Below the pieces are notes generated by a model that was not told where the DNA came from, searched no databases, and was given only the letters and a program-made list of their open reading frames with translations. From Granulibacter bethesdensis (GTDB taxonomy: Bacteria; Pseudomonadota; Alphaproteobacteria; Acetobacterales; Acetobacteraceae), in the NCBI RefSeq assembly GCF_001889545.1, contig NZ_CP018194.1, forward strand, positions 434,001 to 498,000: a stretch of DNA of 64,000 bases, read 5' to 3'. Below are positions 4,427 through 11,176 of this stretch, one piece after another. The position numbers were made by a program, and so were the translations under genes. Position 1 is the stretch's first letter. Every line of letters starts with the position of its first letter.

Positions 4427-5770
4427 TTACCCGTTCCGGCTGATTTCGTACAGGGCGATGGCGGTGGCGACGGAGACATTCAGGCTCTCCATTCCCTCAG
4501 CCATGGCGAGGGATACGATTTCATCGCAGTTTTCCCGCGTCAGGCGACGCAGCCCGTCCCCTTCTGCGCCCATCACCAGCGCCACGCGACGCTTGCCCAG
4601 TGCCGGGCCGGAGAGGGTCGTGCCTTCCGCATCAAGACCGACCACCCATAGATCGGCGGCTTTCAGGGCAGCGATGGTGCGGGCGATGTTGACCACGCGC
4701 AGCATCGGCAGCCTGTCCAGCGCGCCGGAGGCAGCCTTGGCCATAGTGCCGCTTTCTTCCGGAGCGTTCCGGTCCTGCACGATGACGCAGCAGGCCTGAA
4801 AAGCGGCGGCAGAGCGGAGAATGGCGCCGACATTGCGGGGATCGCTGACCTGATCCAGCACCAGAACCGGGCCGGGACGTTGCGCCAGAATCTCGCCCAG
4901 CGGCGGGGATGGCAGCTTGTCCGCCAGCAGAGCAATGCCCTGATGCACCGATTCGGTGCCGAGCAGCTGATCCATATGGGCGCGTTCCGTGCGCTCCGGT
5001 ACCAGCGCCCAGGGGGGCGGCAGGCGCTCGGCAAGGGTTGCCTCGGCCTCTTCGGTCAGCAGCAGGCGACGGAGACGACGTGCCGGATTGCGCAGAGCGG
5101 CCTCAACCGCGTGCAGGCCATGCAGCCAGACTGCGCCCACCGGGGCCTGTAATGCCCGTCCGCCGGAGCGGGACGCACGCTCCACAGCCGGTTGTGCATG
5201 CGCTGTGCTGTTCGATCCGGAATGCTCGGCACGCGGGCGGCGCTCGGCATGCTCGTCGGAGCGGGCGGCTCCATCACGCGGGCGGCCATCACGCGGGCGG
5301 CCATCACGCGGGCGGAAAGAGCGTCCGCCTGACGGGCGTTCGCCGTCCTGCCGATGGCGGGTGGGCCGTTCTCCGAAATTCTGCTCATCTCTGGGGGCAT
5401 CGAAACGCGGACGCCGTTCCGTGCGCTCGCTGGCGTGAGGACCGGATCGGGGGGCTCCATCATGGGAACGAAAAGAGGGTTTGCCGCCTGTCGGGCGTTC
5501 TCCGCCCTGATAGGGGCGCTCCCCACGCTCGGTGAATCGTTGTTCACGCGTGGGCTTGTTGCCCTCGAAACGCGGCTTGTCGGAGCGTGAGCGGTATTCT
5601 CCACCCTGTTCGCTGCGTGCGGCATCCTCACGGGATCGGAAGGATTTTCCCGCCGATGGACGGGAACTGCCGCCCTGATCATTACTGGAGCGCCCTGAGC
5701 GGGAAAAACCGCTGGAGGATGCGTTTTTTGCAGGCCGACCACGGCCCGTATGTTTTGAAGGTGGCTTCAT
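4427..5770 (-). CDS. rlmB: TrmH/SpoU family 23S rRNA 2'-O-methyltransferase (RlmB-like) with long basic tail
   Basis: The C-terminal 234 residues form a standard SpoU methyltransferase that 2'-O-methylates guanosine in rRNA (G2251 of 23S for RlmB). The substrate-binding part begins at HGLHAVEAAL (about residue 217). The knotted SAM-binding part contains DQVSDPRNVGAILRSA, VMGAEGDGLRRLT and ESLNVSVATAIALYE. The first 213 or so residues are low-complexity, rich in R, G, S, P and D, with repeated GERP, RPRDG and FRS units, and probably disordered. Three perfect 15-bp repeats encode the RPRDG triplet. The start at 5770 was chosen because the frame-open extension to 5965 runs antisense through tRNA-Tyr. 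Confidence 0.85.
   Translation of the reverse strand: MKPPSKHTGRGRPAKNASSSGFSRSGRSSNDQGGSSRPSAGKSFRSREDAARSEQGGEYRSRSDKPRFEGNKPTREQRFTERGERPYQGGERPTGGKPSFRSHDGAPRSGPHASERTERRPRFDAPRDEQNFGERPTRHRQDGERPSGGRSFRPRDGRPRDGRPRDGAARSDEHAERRPRAEHSGSNSTAHAQPAVERASRSGGRALQAPVGAVWLHGLHAVEAALRNPARRLRRLLLTEEAEATLAERLPPPWALVPERTERAHMDQLLGTESVHQGIALLADKLPSPPLGEILAQRPGPVLVLDQVSDPRNVGAILRSAAAFQACCVIVQDRNAPEESGTMAKAASGALDRLPMLRVVNIARTIAALKAADLWVVGLDAEGTTLSGPALGKRRVALVMGAEGDGLRRLTRENCDEIVSLAMAEGMESLNVSVATAIALYEISRNG
5271..5315. repeat. Three perfect tandem 15-bp repeats inside rlmB
   Basis: The unit CCATCACGCGGGCGG occurs at 5271-5285, 5286-5300 and 5301-5315 with no mismatch. On the minus strand it encodes the five-residue repeat RPRDG in the disordered tail. 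Being a multiple of three, copy-number changes would keep the reading frame. Confidence 0.9.
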
Positions 5771-5871
5771 CGCGCCGGTATAATCCGCTTTCGTGGGGCT
5801 TGAAATATCCAGAAATGCGCATCGGATACGTTGACAAGGCCGCCTTTTGGCTCTAGTCCGCACCCCGCTCC

Positions 5872-5957
5872 GGAGGGGTGCCCGAGTGGCTAAAGGGGAC
5901 GGACTGTAAATCCGTTGGTTAACGCCTACGTTGGTTCGAATCCAACCCCCTCCACCA
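5872..5957 (+). tRNA. tRNA-Tyr (GTA)
   Basis: An 86-base class II tRNA. The acceptor stem GGAGGGG (5872-5878) pairs with CCCCTCC (5947-5953), followed by A and an encoded CCA. The anticodon arm ACGGA-CTGTAAA-TCCGT places GTA at 5906-5908. A long variable arm and the T arm GTTGG-TTCGAAT-CCAAC follow. Confidence 0.97.
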
Positions 5958-6061
5958 TCCTTCATTTTTCACAGGCCGACAGGCCCGGATGTCTAAGGGA
6001 TGGACAGCACGGTTTAAAGGCTCGACGCCATGCGCGTCCTGCGCTAATCCGTTTCAGGGCT

Positions 6062-6135
6062 GCGGGTGTAGCTCAATGGTAGAGTTCCAGCCTTCCAAGC
6101 TGGCTGTGCGGGTTCGATTCCCGTCACCCGCTCCA
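6062..6135 (+). tRNA. tRNA-Gly (TCC)
   Basis: A 74-base tRNA. The acceptor GCGGGTG (6062-6068) pairs with CACCCGC (6125-6131), followed by T and an encoded CCA. The anticodon arm CCAGC-CTTCCAA-GCTGG places TCC at 6094-6096. Its 3' end (6116-6136) is repeated almost exactly at 10197-10217 and is the attachment site of a decayed integrative element. Confidence 0.97.
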
Positions 6136-6136
6136 A
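6116..6136 (+). other. attL-type attachment repeat (3' end of tRNA-Gly)
   Basis: The last 20 bases of tRNA-Gly plus one base form the left copy of a 21-bp direct repeat. The second copy is at 10197-10217 with one mismatch (G in the tRNA versus T). An integrase start follows on the right, the usual layout for tyrosine-recombinase elements that insert into tRNA 3' ends. Confidence 0.8.
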
Positions 6137-6244
6137 TTTAAGTTCTACAGAGTTCCGAGAAGTTCTGTAATGCCTTGAATTCAAAGGAAAAATCTCTGAT
6201 TTTGTTTCAGTGACTTCTACCGAAAGCCATCCGCAGCCAGGACG

Positions 6245-6266
6245 TTTTAGTCCATTTTTAGTCCAT
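6245..6266 (+). repeat. Two tandem 11-bp repeats near the attachment site
   Basis: TTTTAGTCCAT occurs at 6245-6255 and again directly after it at 6256-6266. Lying between the tRNA attachment site and the integrase start, it is a candidate arm-type integrase binding site. The repeat is seen; the function is inferred. Confidence 0.6.
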
Positions 6267-6355
6267 CTAAGCGGTTGGCGGCGAGTCCGGATTGCTGCTC
6301 GAACGAAGCGGGGAAGGGATGAAGGTTTGGCTCCTGACAAGAACAGGAGCCAGAA

Positions 6356-6455
6356 ATGCCTCTTACCGATACCGCCGTTCGGCAGGCTAAGTTCGCCGGG
6401 AGGGACTACACCCTCGGTGATCTCGACGGTTTGTCCTTGCACGTTTCAGCTCGAG
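6356..6455 (+). pseudogene. int: Truncated P4-type tyrosine integrase (N-terminal stump)
   Basis: The ATG at 6356 opens a frame encoding MPLTDTAVRQAK, then GRDYTLGDLDGLSLHVS. This is the typical beginning of phage-P4-like integrases (the N-terminal DUF4102 arm-binding domain). After about 33 codons it runs into the left end of an IS3-family element at 6456. None of the catalytic domain is found to the right of the IS, so the gene is dead. Its position just after tRNA-Gly and its orientation fit a former integrative element. Confidence 0.75.
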
Positions 6456-6481
6456 TGACCTTGCCCCGTTGAAATAATCCA
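6456..6481 (+). repeat. IS left inverted repeat
   Basis: Begins TGACCTTGCCCC. It matches the reverse complement of 7702-7727 at 11 of the first 12 bases and again at an ATCCA block after a one-base shift. Confidence 0.75.
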
Positions 6482-6519
6482 TTTTGAAGTAAGCTCTGGC
6501 CCATTGAGAGGACCAGGGA

Positions 6520-6786
6520 ATGAAGCACAATCGTTTCACGGTCGAACAGATCATCGGCGTTCTGAAGGAGCACGAGGCTGGCACGCCGGTCTCGGAGCTT
6601 TGCCGCAAGCACGGCGTCAGCGATGCCAGCATCTATAAATGGAAGGCCAAATTCGGCGGCATGGACGTATCCGAAGCCAAGCGTCTGAAGACGCTGGAAG
6701 ACGAGAACACGAAGCTGAAACGGCTCCTGGCAGATGCGATGCTCGACAATGCGGCTTTGAAAGACCTTTTGGGAAAGAAGTGGTGA
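6520..6786 (+). CDS. IS3-family transposase OrfA
   Basis: An 88-residue DNA-binding subunit. The N-terminal helix-turn-helix spans roughly residues 5-40 (FTVEQIIGVL through SELCRKHGVSDASIYKWK), followed by a leucine-zipper-like helix (LKTLEDENTKLKRLLAD). It ends TGGTGA, where a GTG for orfB sits in the -1 frame. A run GGGAAAGAAG just upstream could support programmed -1 frameshifting to an OrfAB fusion, as known for IS3 elements. It appears intact. Confidence 0.88.
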   Translation: MKHNRFTVEQIIGVLKEHEAGTPVSELCRKHGVSDASIYKWKAKFGGMDVSEAKRLKTLEDENTKLKRLLADAMLDNAALKDLLGKKW

Positions 6787-7709
6787 CGCCCGCAGCAAAG
6801 CGGAAAGCTGTCGCTCATCTGATGGATCACCACCAGATGAGCGAACGGCGGGCGTGTAAAGCCATCGGCTTTTGCCGGATGACGATCCGTTACGAAACCA
6901 GGCGCCGCGATGATCATGACCTTCGCGAGCGTATGAAGGCGCTGGCGCACGAACGCCGCCGCTTTGGATATCGACGCCTTCATGTGCTGCTCAGGCGTGA
7001 GGGTCACCTTGTGAACCACAAGCGGCTCTTCCGGCTCTATCGGGAAGAGAAGCTGACGGTGCGCAAGCGCGGCGGTCGGAAACGAGCGATAGGCACACGA
7101 GCACCGATGCTGATCCCGCTTGCCGCCAATGATCGCTGGTAACTGGACTTCGTGTCGGATCAGCTCACCGATGGTCGCAGGTTCCGGGTGCTTACGGTCG
7201 TCGACGATTGCACCAGGGAATGCCTGGGCCTCGTCGCCGATACGTCCCTTTCCGGCCTGCGGGTTGCCCGTGAGCTGGATCGGATCATCGAGGGACGAGG
7301 CAAGCCGACGATGATCGTCAGCGACAATGGCAGCGAGTTCACCAGCAACGCGATCCTGCAATGGACGGATCGGGCCAAGGTGGAATGGCACTACATCGCA
7401 CCGGGCAAACCGATCCGGAATGCCTTCATCGAAAGCTTCAATGGGCGGCTGCGAGATGAGTTCCTGAATGAAACTCTATTCTCGTCACTGATCCATGCTC
7501 GATCAGCGCTTTCAAACTGGCGCAGCGATTACAACGATCATCGACCACACTATGGACTCGGCTGGATGACACCTGCCGAATTCGCTCAGATAATCAACCC
7601 GCGACGTGATGCGGTGCTGCGCAGCCGGAATGGCTCCGCACCGCAACCCGCCGCTACAGCCTCAAATACAGCAACCCAAAACCGCTGGAGCGAACTCAAA
7701 ACTGGATAA
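6783..7709 (+). pseudogene. IS3-family transposase OrfB, interrupted by an in-frame stop
   Basis: One reading frame of 309 codons from the GTG at 6783, broken only by TAA at 7140-7142. The upstream part has the HTH_21 region (ERRACKAIGF, RRFGYRRLHVLL). The downstream part has the rve/DDE catalytic core: LDFVSD (first Asp), IVSDNGSEF (second Asp) and [12 protein letters not shown] (Glu). The stop sits at the codon just before LDF, where relatives have Ser or another residue. Re-initiation at GTG 7152 would miss the first catalytic Asp at 7146-7148. No frameshift is needed, so this looks like a single recent point mutation. Confidence 0.88.
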
Positions 7710-7727
7710 AATTTGGGGGCAATGTCA
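7702..7727 (-). repeat. IS right inverted repeat
   Basis: The reverse complement begins TGACATTGCCCC. It ends at 7727, after which island sequence resumes without a target duplication. Confidence 0.75.
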
Positions 7728-7833
7728 TCCTAAGCAAGCCATTAGCACACCTTTGCTAATTCCGGGCTGACCACGTACCGTGTATCCGGATGCCGTGCAG
7801 AACAATCTATATCGCAACCGAATCGGGGATACC

Positions 7834-8280
7834 ATGATCACGAGACAATCCTTTCAAGTCTTTCCACTGCTGGCCGCAACGATGATCGGACTAGCTGCCT
7901 GCACCGGTCCAGGAGCAACTGGTGGCGAGACGTATGAGGACAAGTTCAGCCAATCGTATATTCAGTCGCACCTCTTTAAAGGCAAAACGACAATGCGGGA
8001 CGTGCAGGCGCTTTATGGTCAACCCTTCCGTCGCAGCACCCAGGGTGGTGACCGTGTCTACTGGACCTACAGGCGGGAGCAAACCGGCTCGATGGGCATG
8101 CTGACTGGCATTGCGCGAGTGGTTCCTGGCGTTGGGATGTCCAACGCTCTCATTAGAGTGAACGAGAACCTAGCGCAAATGCAGCGGGCTTCCGATGCGG
8201 CTTCCGGAAATACCGAAGTGCGTGGAGACTCGCTTGATCTGGTTTTTCAAAACGGCGTTTTAGATAACTGGAGCATGTAG
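7834..8280 (+). CDS. BamE/SmpA-like small lipoprotein
   Basis: A 148-residue protein with a lipoprotein signal: a basic start, a hydrophobic stretch, and the lipobox LAAC with the lipidated Cys at residue 23. The body has the pattern KGKTTMRDVQALYGQP then GDRVYWTY, which resembles the SmpA/OmlA/BamE fold found in outer-membrane assembly and in many mobile-element lipoproteins. The ATG at 7834 was chosen for the signal peptide and the GGGGAT just upstream; an ATG-like start at 7780 would bury it. It lies inside the tRNA-Gly island just right of the IS, so it is probably cargo. The assignment to the fold is by pattern only. Confidence 0.65.
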   Translation: MITRQSFQVFPLLAATMIGLAACTGPGATGGETYEDKFSQSYIQSHLFKGKTTMRDVQALYGQPFRRSTQGGDRVYWTYRREQTGSMGMLTGIARVVPGVGMSNALIRVNENLAQMQRASDAASGNTEVRGDSLDLVFQNGVLDNWSM

Positions 8281-8298
8281 AGGCTCCTTGCAAAAAGG

Positions 8299-8332
8299 AG
8301 GGACATGACCCCGAGCGCGAGCGCATGTCCCT
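8299..8332. terminator. Hairpin after the lipoprotein gene
   Basis: A perfect 9-bp inverted repeat, AGGGACATG (8299-8307) and CATGTCCCT (8324-8332), with a GC-rich loop, starts 18 bases after the stop. No T tract follows, so termination is only probable. Confidence 0.45.
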
Positions 8333-8371
8333 CATGAGACGGAAAAGAAGACGGTGATGTAGCTGGCTGCC

Positions 8372-8818
8372 TCACCAACCATTGTAGTTGAGCAGCAAGT
8401 TGGCGAACACCTGCCGGCGCCGCAGATCGAGGCCACCAAAATCGGCAAGTCCATGGAAGCTGCAGCGCTTGAGCATGGCGCCGCCCTCGCGATCGTTATA
8501 GAAACTCACCATGGCAGCGAGGAACATCCGCTCGCCACCACTCAGGACGCCAAGGGCGTCACCGAGCATCAGCAGGCTTGGTTGCAGGTCCCATTTGTCG
8601 GTGGCACGTTGAAAGCCATCGCAGGTGCCATCACCGAACCATTGGTAGCCGGCGATTTCTGCGCCGCGCTTCCATGCTTGAAAGAACGCTGCAGGAGCCT
8701 GCGCGGCATGCAGATCCTCTTGTGCGATCAGTTCGAGCACGTCTCGATGGAAAGGTTGGTTCACGAGAAATCTCCTGGCGGAAGTAGTAAGGGATGGCAA
8801 GGCAATCGCGTTGACCAT
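8372..8818 (-). CDS. Hypothetical protein of the tRNA-Gly island
   Basis: I do not recognise this family. From the ATG at 8818 it would be 148 residues, soluble, with no signal peptide or membrane segment, and a mixed composition that looks like a real protein (QPFHRDVLELIAQEDLHA, ALGVLSGGERMF, VSFYNDREGG, ending LLLNYNGW). The frame stays open for another 239 codons upstream, but that part runs antisense over other material and includes remains of the neighbouring methyltransferase, so it was excluded. No clear ribosome binding site precedes 8818. The gene may be cargo or a remnant. Confidence 0.45.
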   Translation of the reverse strand: MVNAIALPSLTTSARRFLVNQPFHRDVLELIAQEDLHAAQAPAAFFQAWKRGAEIAGYQWFGDGTCDGFQRATDKWDLQPSLLMLGDALGVLSGGERMFLAAMVSFYNDREGGAMLKRCSFHGLADFGGLDLRRRQVFANLLLNYNGW

Positions 8819-9137
8819 CGGCGGTTCTGCCGGGTCTTGCCGTGGTTTGGTAAATCGAGCCAACGCGTTGGATGGAACAGGACAGGCATCAGCGCCTGTG
8901 AGGCGCGCGTCCGCGGGGGCGATGCGAGGCGGACTGGCGGGTCGAACGGATGAAATTCCGCAGCAGCCGGTTGACCCTGGCTGCTTGCATGGTGCTGGCT
9001 TCGTCAGCAACACGTGCCTGGAAGCATTCGGCCGATGACGGAGGATGTCATGTGCCAATACGATGATTCCGCTGACCGCCATGATGGGGTCGATGACCGA
9101 ACGAAGGAGGAACGGACCCCGACGCTGGTCTGTTTCC
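8819..9137. other. Island sequence without a recognisable gene
   Basis: About 320 bases between the hypothetical gene and the methyltransferase remnant. I see no intact gene, RNA or clear hairpin; open frames here have no recognisable protein character. Confidence 0.3.
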
Positions 9138-9849
9138 TCAGCGGGCCTGCAGCAGTCGCTTCCCAATCCATGCGACACATGGCACTGCCATGGAATTTCC
9201 GATGGACCGGTAGCGTGGGGCATCTGCGGCGGGTTTGCCGCGGTAGGGCACCAGCGTGTAATGGTCGGGTATCCCCTGTAAGCGCTCGCATTCCACCGGC
9301 ATGAGCCTGCGACCTGCCATCCCGCCCAATCCGACCATCCTGTCTCACCTGCGGACAACAGGCTGCCGAGGAAGTGCTCTTTGGTCGAAGCAAATAGAAT
9401 ATGGGCTTTGTCGCTTCCGCCCGAGCTTGCTTCGTAGGGCGTCGCAGATTTCTCCGCCGAGCTCGGCAGTCGAGCCGCCGTCTCGGTCGCGCAAGGCGAC
9501 AGACCTGGCTCTGTGCTGGGGTTCGGGGATCGCATTGCGGTCAGGTTTGCGCTTTGTCATGGGCGACCCCGCTAATACCGTGCGCTCTCAGTGTCGGCGA
9601 CAGGTTCTCCAGTGCATCGGCGCCGTTGTCTGTTGCGGTGAAGCCGATGGCAGGCTTGGTGTTGCAATGATCATCAGCATGAGATCCTGCGACGGGAAAC
9701 AAGATTGTTGGCCGGCCCTGTCCGGGTTGTCCGCCTCCGGGTGAGAGCGTTCCCGTGATCTGGCCATGGCCGGCTTCCAGGCGCACCTCGACACGGCTGT
9801 TCTGGGCGAGGGCGATCGGCGTGTCGGTCGGAAGGACATGATGGGCCAT
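9138..9849 (-). pseudogene. Broken DNA (cytosine-5-) methyltransferase, C-terminal part
   Basis: Pieces of a phage-type Dcm/C5 methyltransferase appear in order in shifting frames on the minus strand. TPIALAQNSRVEVRL and then FTATDNGADALENLSPTLRAHG lie in one frame. LRDRDGGSTAELGGEI is in a second, EASSGGSDKAHIL in a third. Back in the second frame, after an in-frame stop at 9345-9347, comes RRLMPVECERLQGIPDHYTL through RYRSIGNSMAVPCV, the motif IX/X end of the family. At least two frameshifts and one stop are needed to join them. The catalytic PC motif region is not found, so the N-terminal half is missing. It would have methylated cytosines in the element or phage DNA. Confidence 0.7.
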
Positions 9850-10196
9850 GATGGGAACGCCGCGGCCCGTGCCGTCCTCGCTGCTGCGCGAGCCTTTCCG
9901 AGTGCGGCCGCATGATGTGGTGACTTGGTCGCCAGATGAAGGGATGCCATTCGGATGACTTTGGTGCTGTTGCGGATCAACTTCAGGAGCTTGTCCGCTA
10001 TGAAACTCCTGATGACTAACGGTGTTGCCTGTCGGAGCAGTTGAGAATGTTTTCTGAAGAGCGATCGTCTACCCCTGACTGACATGCCCAGGAGACGCCT
10101 CTTGCCAAGGTACGAAAGTTAGTCCAGCATCTTGTCTATCAGTCCGCGCTGATTGATGGAATCTTCTTTCGGATCAATCACTTTTGAGCCAAGTCT
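9850..10196. other. Right end of the island, no recognisable gene
   Basis: About 350 bases up to the right attachment repeat. A minus-strand frame is open to 10085, but it has no recognisable domain and may include degraded methyltransferase sequence. Nothing else was identified. Confidence 0.3.
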
Positions 10197-10217
10197 GATT
10201 CCCTTCACCCGCTCCAA
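10197..10217 (+). other. attR-type attachment repeat
   Basis: Matches the 3' end of tRNA-Gly (6116-6136) at 20 of 21 bases, including the CACCCGCTCCA end. No tRNA body precedes it. It marks the right boundary of an island of about 4.1 kb. Just outside it lies the 3' end of the LysR gene. Confidence 0.8.
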
Positions 10218-10267
10218 AATTTCCTTGCACTGCATAAACGCGCTTTGGTCTGCACTTGCTGTTATGG

Positions 10268-11176
10268 TCATGAATTGCAGTCAGCGGTGCTCATGACTCC
10301 GATTTTTTCGCTGATAAACCGCTTGGCCAGCCATTGAGACGCCGGTCCCTGCGGCCGCTGCTTGTGCCAGATCAGCTCCATGGCTACCGGCCAGTCCGCC
10401 GTATCGAAAGCGAGGCGCGGAATGACGAGATCACGGGCGGCGCTGGAGGCGGCAATGATGTGATCGGAGACGAAAGCCCAGCCGATTCCCTGCCTGGCCA
10501 GTTGCAGAATGACCCACTGGCTTTCCACCCACCAGACATCCGCCGCAATGCGCAGCCGGCGCTTTTCCTCACTTTCGCTGCGGGTCGCGACCATCAGTTG
10601 CCGGTGTCGCTTCAACTCTTCCCACTCGATCACCTGGTCCGCCAGCGGATGATCACGTGCGCAGACCAGTTGCAGTGGCACCCAGCCAAGGGTGTGAAAG
10701 CCCAGCACGGCTGGCAGCGTTTCCTGCCGCCACATAATGCCCAGATCGGCCTGACCATCGAGGACAAGGCGGCTCACATCCTCCATAAACGGAAACAGGA
10801 TTTCCAGTTCCACGCTGGGGAAAGTTTCGGCAAAAGAGTGCAGAAGACGCGCGAGGACCGGTTCCGGGTATAATTCGTCAACGGCCAGAACCAGTCTCGT
10901 CTCGACATGTTTTTCCAGACTGCAGGCAACGCCGATGAAATGGGCATGACGATCCAGCACGACCCGCGCCTCTGCCAGCAGCCGGGTTCCGGCTTCGGTC
11001 AGGGATGGTGTGCGCCCGGCCCGCGAAAACAGGGTCACGCCCAGATCAATTTCCATATTGCTGATCGCGGTGCTGATCGCCGACTGGGCTTTGCCCAGAT
11101 GACGTCCGGCAGCTGAAAAAGAGCCCATTTCGGCTGTGGTGACGAAAATGGTCAGTTGCTCAAACGATATGTCCAT
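10268..11176 (-). CDS. LysR-family transcriptional regulator
   Basis: A 302-residue LTTR. The N-terminal winged helix-turn-helix (MDISFEQLTIFVTTAEMGS, then AISNMEIDLGVTLFSR and LTEAG) is followed by a periplasmic-binding-protein-like effector domain (from about residue 90). It is transcribed divergently from a PACE-family efflux gene with 120 bases between the starts. This is the known arrangement of AceR-type regulators that activate PACE pumps in response to biocides or polyamines. The intergenic region contains a palindrome with LTTR spacing. The ligand is not known. Confidence 0.9.
   Translation of the reverse strand: MDISFEQLTIFVTTAEMGSFSAAGRHLGKAQSAISTAISNMEIDLGVTLFSRAGRTPSLTEAGTRLLAEARVVLDRHAHFIGVACSLEKHVETRLVLAVDELYPEPVLARLLHSFAETFPSVELEILFPFMEDVSRLVLDGQADLGIMWRQETLPAVLGFHTLGWVPLQLVCARDHPLADQVIEWEELKRHRQLMVATRSESEEKRRLRIAADVWWVESQWVILQLARQGIGWAFVSDHIIAASSAARDLVIPRLAFDTADWPVAMELIWHKQRPQGPASQWLAKRFISEKIGVMSTADCNS

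Follow-up and report, generated by a model that had tools for sequence, protein, structure and literature searches.

In the Granulibacter bethesdensis genome, a 64-kb stretch of DNA (hereafter the window, positions 434001-498000 of one 2.74-Mb contig) contains a glycine transfer RNA gene, tRNA-Gly(TCC), whose 3' end is followed by a scarred 4.1-kb insertion and then by a LysR-family gene. The last 20 bases of the tRNA gene plus one further base (6116-6136) are repeated with one mismatch at 10197-10217, and between these two attachment (att) repeats lie the start of an integrase gene, an insertion sequence (IS), two intact open reading frames (ORFs), an RNA motif, and the end of a broken methyltransferase gene. 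A preliminary description, made from the sequence alone, had recognized the repeat and each of these features except the RNA, and had read them as a tyrosine-recombinase element that has lost mobility; the repeat and all of the named genes are confirmed here, and the loss of mobility is supported by the empty sites described below. The features, in window coordinates, are as follows.

6062-6135, plus strand: tRNA-Gly(TCC), which belongs to the host and offers the attachment site at its 3' end (ARAGORN, Rfam)
6116-6136, plus strand: proximal att repeat, GATTCCCGTCACCCGCTCCAA; left synteny with both congeners stops at 6136
6208-6429, plus strand: upstream region and start of the integrase gene; its DNA matches, at 73% identity, the corresponding region of an integrase locus (L148) of an integrative and conjugative element (ICE)
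6356-6454, plus strand: integrase stump, 33 amino acids, with the tRNA behind its start; it shares 22 of 32 residues with the nearest integrases of the family
6456-7727, plus strand: insertion sequence of the IS3 family, its terminal inverted repeats imperfect; right end placed by the inverted repeat only
7837-8280, plus strand: intact lipoprotein-like ORF, 147 amino acids, with a lipobox (LAAC) seen by eye
8292-8356, no strand assigned: stretch 3' of the next gene in which an inverted repeat can be seen by eye; 45-66 bp of it recur in the listed ICE loci at 79-87% identity
8372-8764, minus strand: intact 130-amino-acid gene with a GTG start (the 130-residue gene); it belongs to the conserved core of ICEclc-type elements, where topB lies nearby
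8886-9026, minus strand: radC RNA (RF01754), matching the full model (1-149 of 149) at 64.9 bits against a gathering score of 40
9138-9894, minus strand: broken DNA cytosine (C5) methyltransferase, reduced to its C-terminal part, which is spread over more than one frame and contains an in-frame stop
9890-10196, no strand assigned: about 300 bp, distal element end or junk, without a match in the fetched ICE loci
10197-10217, plus strand: distal att repeat, GATTCCCTTCACCCGCTCCAA, from the 21-mer comparison
10268-11176, minus strand: LysR-family gene, the first core gene beyond the element; protein 97% identical in both congeners

The insertion is real, and both of its borders lie inside the repeat. 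The two 21-mers are the sole sites with three or fewer mismatches in the window, and two such sites arose by chance in none of 100 shuffles (mean of 0.02 matches in shuffled sequence). The two congeners (G001 and G002) in our comparison set of 60 genomes both have an empty site: on alignment nothing of 6137-10196 stands between the flanks, the left flank aligning through 6136 and the LysR side resuming at 10277, at about 92% identity. Positions 10197-10224 (G001) or 10197-10221 (G002) map to the congener tRNA-Gly end, meaning that past the repeat only 7 or 4 bases match before a variable stretch begins (10218-10276; 59 nt in the window versus 89 and 189 nt in the congeners). The prediction that a related genome would join 6136 directly to 10218 is therefore borne out as to the empty site and not as to a seamless join; the boundary, first described as exact to the base, falls within the repeat on both sides, with the variable stretch following on the right. 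Because the bases after the repeat are partly shared with the host's tRNA-Gly(CCC), it is the syntenic LysR gene, and not those bases, that identifies the locus. Neither intact gene, lipoprotein-like or 130-residue, has a match in either congener, and no integrase-free relative was found to carry this sequence among its core genes, which would have spoken against an island.

The insertion is bounded by a direct repeat of tRNA sequence within the range of about 18-23 bp that marks ICEclc-family insertions at tRNA-Gly. Very probably, to judge from sequence comparisons, it is not a small element in its own right but derives from a far larger ICE of the ICEclc/ICEbph-sal/ICEXTD family, which integrated at the 3' end of tRNA-Gly(TCC) and then collapsed; the empty sites place the insertion at this tRNA, and homology points to the family. 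This family has been tied to tRNA-Gly for ICEclc and ICEXTD (PMC8704644 and PMC9960961, both in excerpt). The family integrase, of about 617 amino acids, stands beside the tRNA and reads inward; the stump agrees with it in position, direction and first 33 amino acids, the rest of the gene being gone, and is 68.8% identical over 32 residues to 617-amino-acid integrases (a Pseudomonas veronii record and P. putida pKF715A), with a Pfam Arm-DNA-bind_3 match under the cut-off (E 0.059). With the P. veronii integrase as query, a long integrase of at least 61% identity was found in 30 of 31 genomes (G690 has only weaker ones), and ARAGORN called a tRNA-Gly in the 1.5-kb flank at 28 of these 30 loci, one per genome (24 CCC and 4 GCC, with none called at L131 and L142). 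In all eight cases where integrase and 130-residue gene were assigned to one contig by its length the two are convergent, as they are in the window. When the 33-residue stump was searched against 385 genomes of the class (E 1e-5), only the own genome matched, which carries little weight with so short a query.

The second line of homology comes from the far side of the element. By scanning genome contigs with an alignment of the 130-residue protein, we obtained 271 loci, and in the best 80 of these, in every one of which the gene is free of stops, the neighbours are topB (74 loci), ssb (72), the end of parB (55) and the same methyltransferase (10). Judged by these homologues, the 130-residue gene is an ICE core gene and not accessory cargo, and the radC RNA beside it is added to the contents of the element. 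Searches of Pfam, NCBIfam and PHROGs returned no family for the protein. Methyltransferase stub (89% identical to an Enterobacter ludwigii enzyme over 53 residues), radC RNA and 130-residue gene stand in the order and orientation of the family, and would be all that remains of a core block that, read inward from the far end, runs parB-ssb-topB-(methyltransferase)-130-residue gene. Among 299 genomes of the host's family, the gene was found in the own genome and as one 30%-identity match elsewhere, and it is therefore foreign to the group as sampled. Its pairwise ratio of nonsynonymous to synonymous substitution against five relatives is about 0.1-0.2, most of which divergence should predate the insertion, so that the ratio is no demonstration of selection in this host.

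Comparison with complete or larger elements gives an idea of how much is missing. A distal att pattern at two of eight fetched far ends sets the span of the element at about 89 kb (G692) and 74 kb (G700). In both, some 15.3 kb separate the 130-residue gene from the distal att (1.4 kb in the window), and the distance from integrase to that gene is about 71 kb and 56 kb, respectively, where the window has only the IS and the lipoprotein-like gene. The integrase locus of G692 (L135) has, as a separate observation, two att copies 182 bp apart between tRNA-Gly and integrase, as if a small element or a second insertion were present. The E. ludwigii plasmid NZ_CP116348.1 and a contig of a Pigmentiphaga metagenome-assembled genome (L047) carry methyltransferase, radC RNA and 130-residue gene in the window's order and orientation, with the protein 67% and 82% identical, respectively, to that of the window; both retain more of the neighbourhood, and the methyltransferase is broken only in the window, where an 83-amino-acid ORF found in L047 between the RNA and the 130-residue gene is also missing.

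Among described elements, ICEbph-sal of Pseudomonas stutzeri KF716 is, according to the excerpted text of PMC8704644, a transferable element of 117 kb whose target is the 3' end of tRNA-Gly(CCC); its repeat of 18 bp is TTCCCTTCGCCCGCTCCA, its int gene adjoins attL, and parA/parB lie about 100 kb away; the window scar, by contrast, is 4.1 kb long, is without transfer genes, and sits at tRNA-Gly(TCC), and its distal repeat differs from the ICEbph-sal att by one base (A for G). The ICEbph-sal integrase is also found on plasmid pKF715A of P. putida KF715, and the start of the pKF715A integrase is 69% identical to the window stump. ICEclc of P. knackmussii B13 is placed by the same excerpts at tRNA-Gly(GCC), with an att five bases off that of ICEbph-sal, and its genes for a topoisomerase and a single-strand-binding protein are clustered together (PMC2892462, in excerpt), while the repeat of ICEXTD from Azoarcus sp. 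CIB has 23 bp, TTCGATTCCCATCGCCCGCTCCA (PMC9960961, in excerpt). The window scar has no catabolic cargo.

Several observations weigh against this reading. Relaxase, type IV secretion system, parA/parB, ssb and topB are all gone, and the family is assigned from the insertion site, a stump of 33 residues and core DNA of about 1.6 kb. None of the 28 relatives in which a tRNA-Gly was called uses tRNA-Gly(TCC). That integrase and 130-residue gene belong to the same ICE is an assumption at most of the 30 loci, the distal att pattern was not seen at six of the eight fetched far ends, and the best 80 loci carry only 34 different versions of the 130-residue protein and hence are not 80 independent cases. 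Positions 9890-10196 match nothing in the fetched ICE loci, the lipoprotein-like gene matches none of the 80, and elsewhere in the genome (G000:C1:1308739-1309998) there is a further integrase of this type, a distant one at 31% identity. Genes for conjugation, such as relaxase and type IV secretion genes, are absent from the listed ORFs and from nine scanned stretches between the repeats, no genome-wide search for them having been made, and the element is for this reason to be called derived from the ICEclc family and not a working member of it.

Most probably, an ICE of the ICEclc/ICEbph-sal/ICEXTD family used its own tyrosine recombinase to enter tRNA-Gly(TCC) at the 3' end, and it would have arrived after the split from the two sister species, as opposed to having been lost in both. 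An IS3-family element would then have inserted in the integrase gene, and this element may have caused the main deletion: the IS abuts the loss and lacks a target duplication, from which we infer a deletion that started at its inner end and took most of the integrase and the transfer region. A second loss would have removed the end that runs from parA to topB together with the first part of the methyltransferase, about 14 kb being missing toward the distal repeat relative to the measured ICEs. Present today are both att repeats, the beginning of the integrase, the IS, the lipoprotein-like gene, the core gene with the radC RNA ahead of it, and the methyltransferase stub. The element should not move by itself: searches of the genome turned up no full-length cognate integrase, only the stump, and no topoisomerase of ICE type, the one type IA topoisomerase having like-placed counterparts in both congeners. 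Relocation of the rest of the ICE to another part of the genome was also considered and is not supported by what was sought genome-wide, namely the whole insert as DNA (one place), the topoisomerase, the cognate integrase and the radC RNA (one copy, in the scar).

The IS itself, which directly abuts the integrase stump, has the hallmarks of the IS3 family, namely an orfA with a helix-turn-helix domain (HTH_Tnp_1, 6.5e-24), an orfB with a DDE core (rve, 1.3e-17) and short terminal inverted repeats starting with TG; its ends are TGACNTTGCCCC, with no matching target bases on its two sides. A stop codon lies within orfB at 7140-7142, and because orfB is split the transpos_IS3 match (1.4e-41) falls under the curated cut-off. 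The IS occupies one place in its own genome (25 of 25 candidates scored) and was found at E 1e-50 in 25 of 200 genomes of the family, its own included, with two candidates per genome scored among the matches listed; the two congeners were not among the genomes with a match.

A different history, in which tRNA-Gly was struck repeatedly and the stump, the methyltransferase/130-residue-gene block and the lipoprotein-like gene came from two different ICEs and a third source, respectively, would account for the lipoprotein-like gene, whose best relative (75% identity) is on a Serratia marcescens plasmid, another (68%) lying in one other genome of the family (G127) amid genes that look housekeeping-like by eye, with no relative in the 80 ICE loci; stacked att copies, moreover, are possible at an integrase locus, as at L135 with its two. 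We regard such a composite hotspot as unlikely, as the window has only two att-like repeats, the integrase-to-core geometry is that of a single ICE, and stump and core block indicate the same family. Still less probable, to the point of being remote, is descent from a prophage or a phage satellite, in which case the integrase would be of P4 type and the methyltransferase would come from a phage: the methyltransferase end does match PHROG families, as do the stump (phrog_3423) and the lipoprotein (phrog_3135), but no phage structural gene is found among the scanned ORFs, the best plasmid match of the methyltransferase is in an ICE-like region, and the order of methyltransferase, radC RNA and 130-residue gene is that of the ICE loci. 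A prophage origin is disfavoured by this ICE-type gene order, and a scan of viral contigs with the lipoprotein, based on exact short patterns and of low sensitivity, confirmed no relative.

Descent from a collapsed ICE also bears on the mismatch between the two repeats. The distal 20-mer, GATTCCCTTCACCCGCTCCA, is the tRNA-Gly(CCC)-type end found at 10 of the 30 ICE integrase loci, where the window tRNA version is found at none, and if the crossover lay 3' of the mismatched base, the far end would carry the base of the ICE. The mismatch may thus be the att sequence of the ICE itself, and not decay, a reading that is suggestive only and that we somewhat favour; on this reading the att of a close intact ICE would read GATTCCCTTCACC. 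A one-base mismatch in attR has been reported for some P. aeruginosa ICEs (PMC10732049, in excerpt). A later mutation, or gene conversion from the host's tRNA-Gly(CCC), would explain the distal T with somewhat smaller probability: this second tRNA-Gly of the host (G000:C1:99200-99273) ends in the same 20-mer as the distal repeat, the two tRNA-Gly loci share about 100 bp downstream, and in G692 and G700 the proximal and distal bases agree at the mismatch position, with hybrid repeats not seen there. Against such a later change stand the 10 of 30 integrase loci with this 20-mer as their tRNA end, against none with the window tRNA version, and the published ICEbph-sal att, one base off the distal copy (PMC8704644, in excerpt).

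The radC RNA is assigned by its covariance-model match, its fold alone being unexceptional (z -1.31; 17 of 200 shuffles fold as well). It occurs once in its own genome, inside the scar, and is absent from the two congeners and 14 control genomes. A model of our own, built from 23 copies (the window and seven fetched loci), gave 238 matches in 81 sources, 1 in the window and 237 in 80 ICE loci; by our reading of the match table, each of the 80 ICEclc-type core loci (L047-L126) has at least one copy and about three on average, those of L047, L048, L050 and L062 having fed the model and matching by construction. All copies in the 80 loci are on the strand of the 130-residue gene, and in the annotated E. 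ludwigii region four of four end 74-129 nt ahead of a listed start codon. RF01754 appears in two papers, one of them the description of the motif in 2010 (PMC2864571, in excerpt), and in a set of 89 papers none contained terms for both ICEclc and radC RNA. To our knowledge, the function of this RNA is unsettled. RNA and 130-residue gene are intact here, while integrase, methyltransferase and IS are broken. A bolder reading, which we consider improbable, is that the two have been kept for function, as a host-domesticated unit, and that the RNA is a family-wide repeated 5' leader or a single-strand DNA structure of ICEclc-type cores, not a regulator of host genes.

As a dead ICE at a tRNA the scar is of an ordinary kind, sharpened by the family name and the empty site; notable are its use of the TCC isoacceptor and the recurrence of radC RNA across the family. 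The best 80 relatives found are, by record titles, mostly beta- and gammaproteobacterial, and the scar suggests that an ICE of this family reached another group; collapsed to about 5% of the size of the two measured relatives with both ends kept, it leaves core gene, RNA and insertion site each readable. Of greater use, as a by-product, is the tie between radC RNA and ICEclc-type cores, which gives a motif of unsettled function a clear genetic home in which its role could be tested.

Two minor observations concern the surroundings of the element. The tRNA-Gly CCC and TCC genes of the genus have about 100 bp of downstream sequence in common (regions of G000:C1:99200 and 440062; L027, L028, L166-L168), and stretches such as GTGCCAAATCCGTGCC are present at both tRNA-Gly loci of G002, the common sequence reflecting either a duplication or an old att exchange. 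Upstream of the tRNA, an ORF at 4427-5965 looks RNA methyltransferase-like by eye and has a long, repeat-bearing N-terminal part rich in arginine, glycine and proline.

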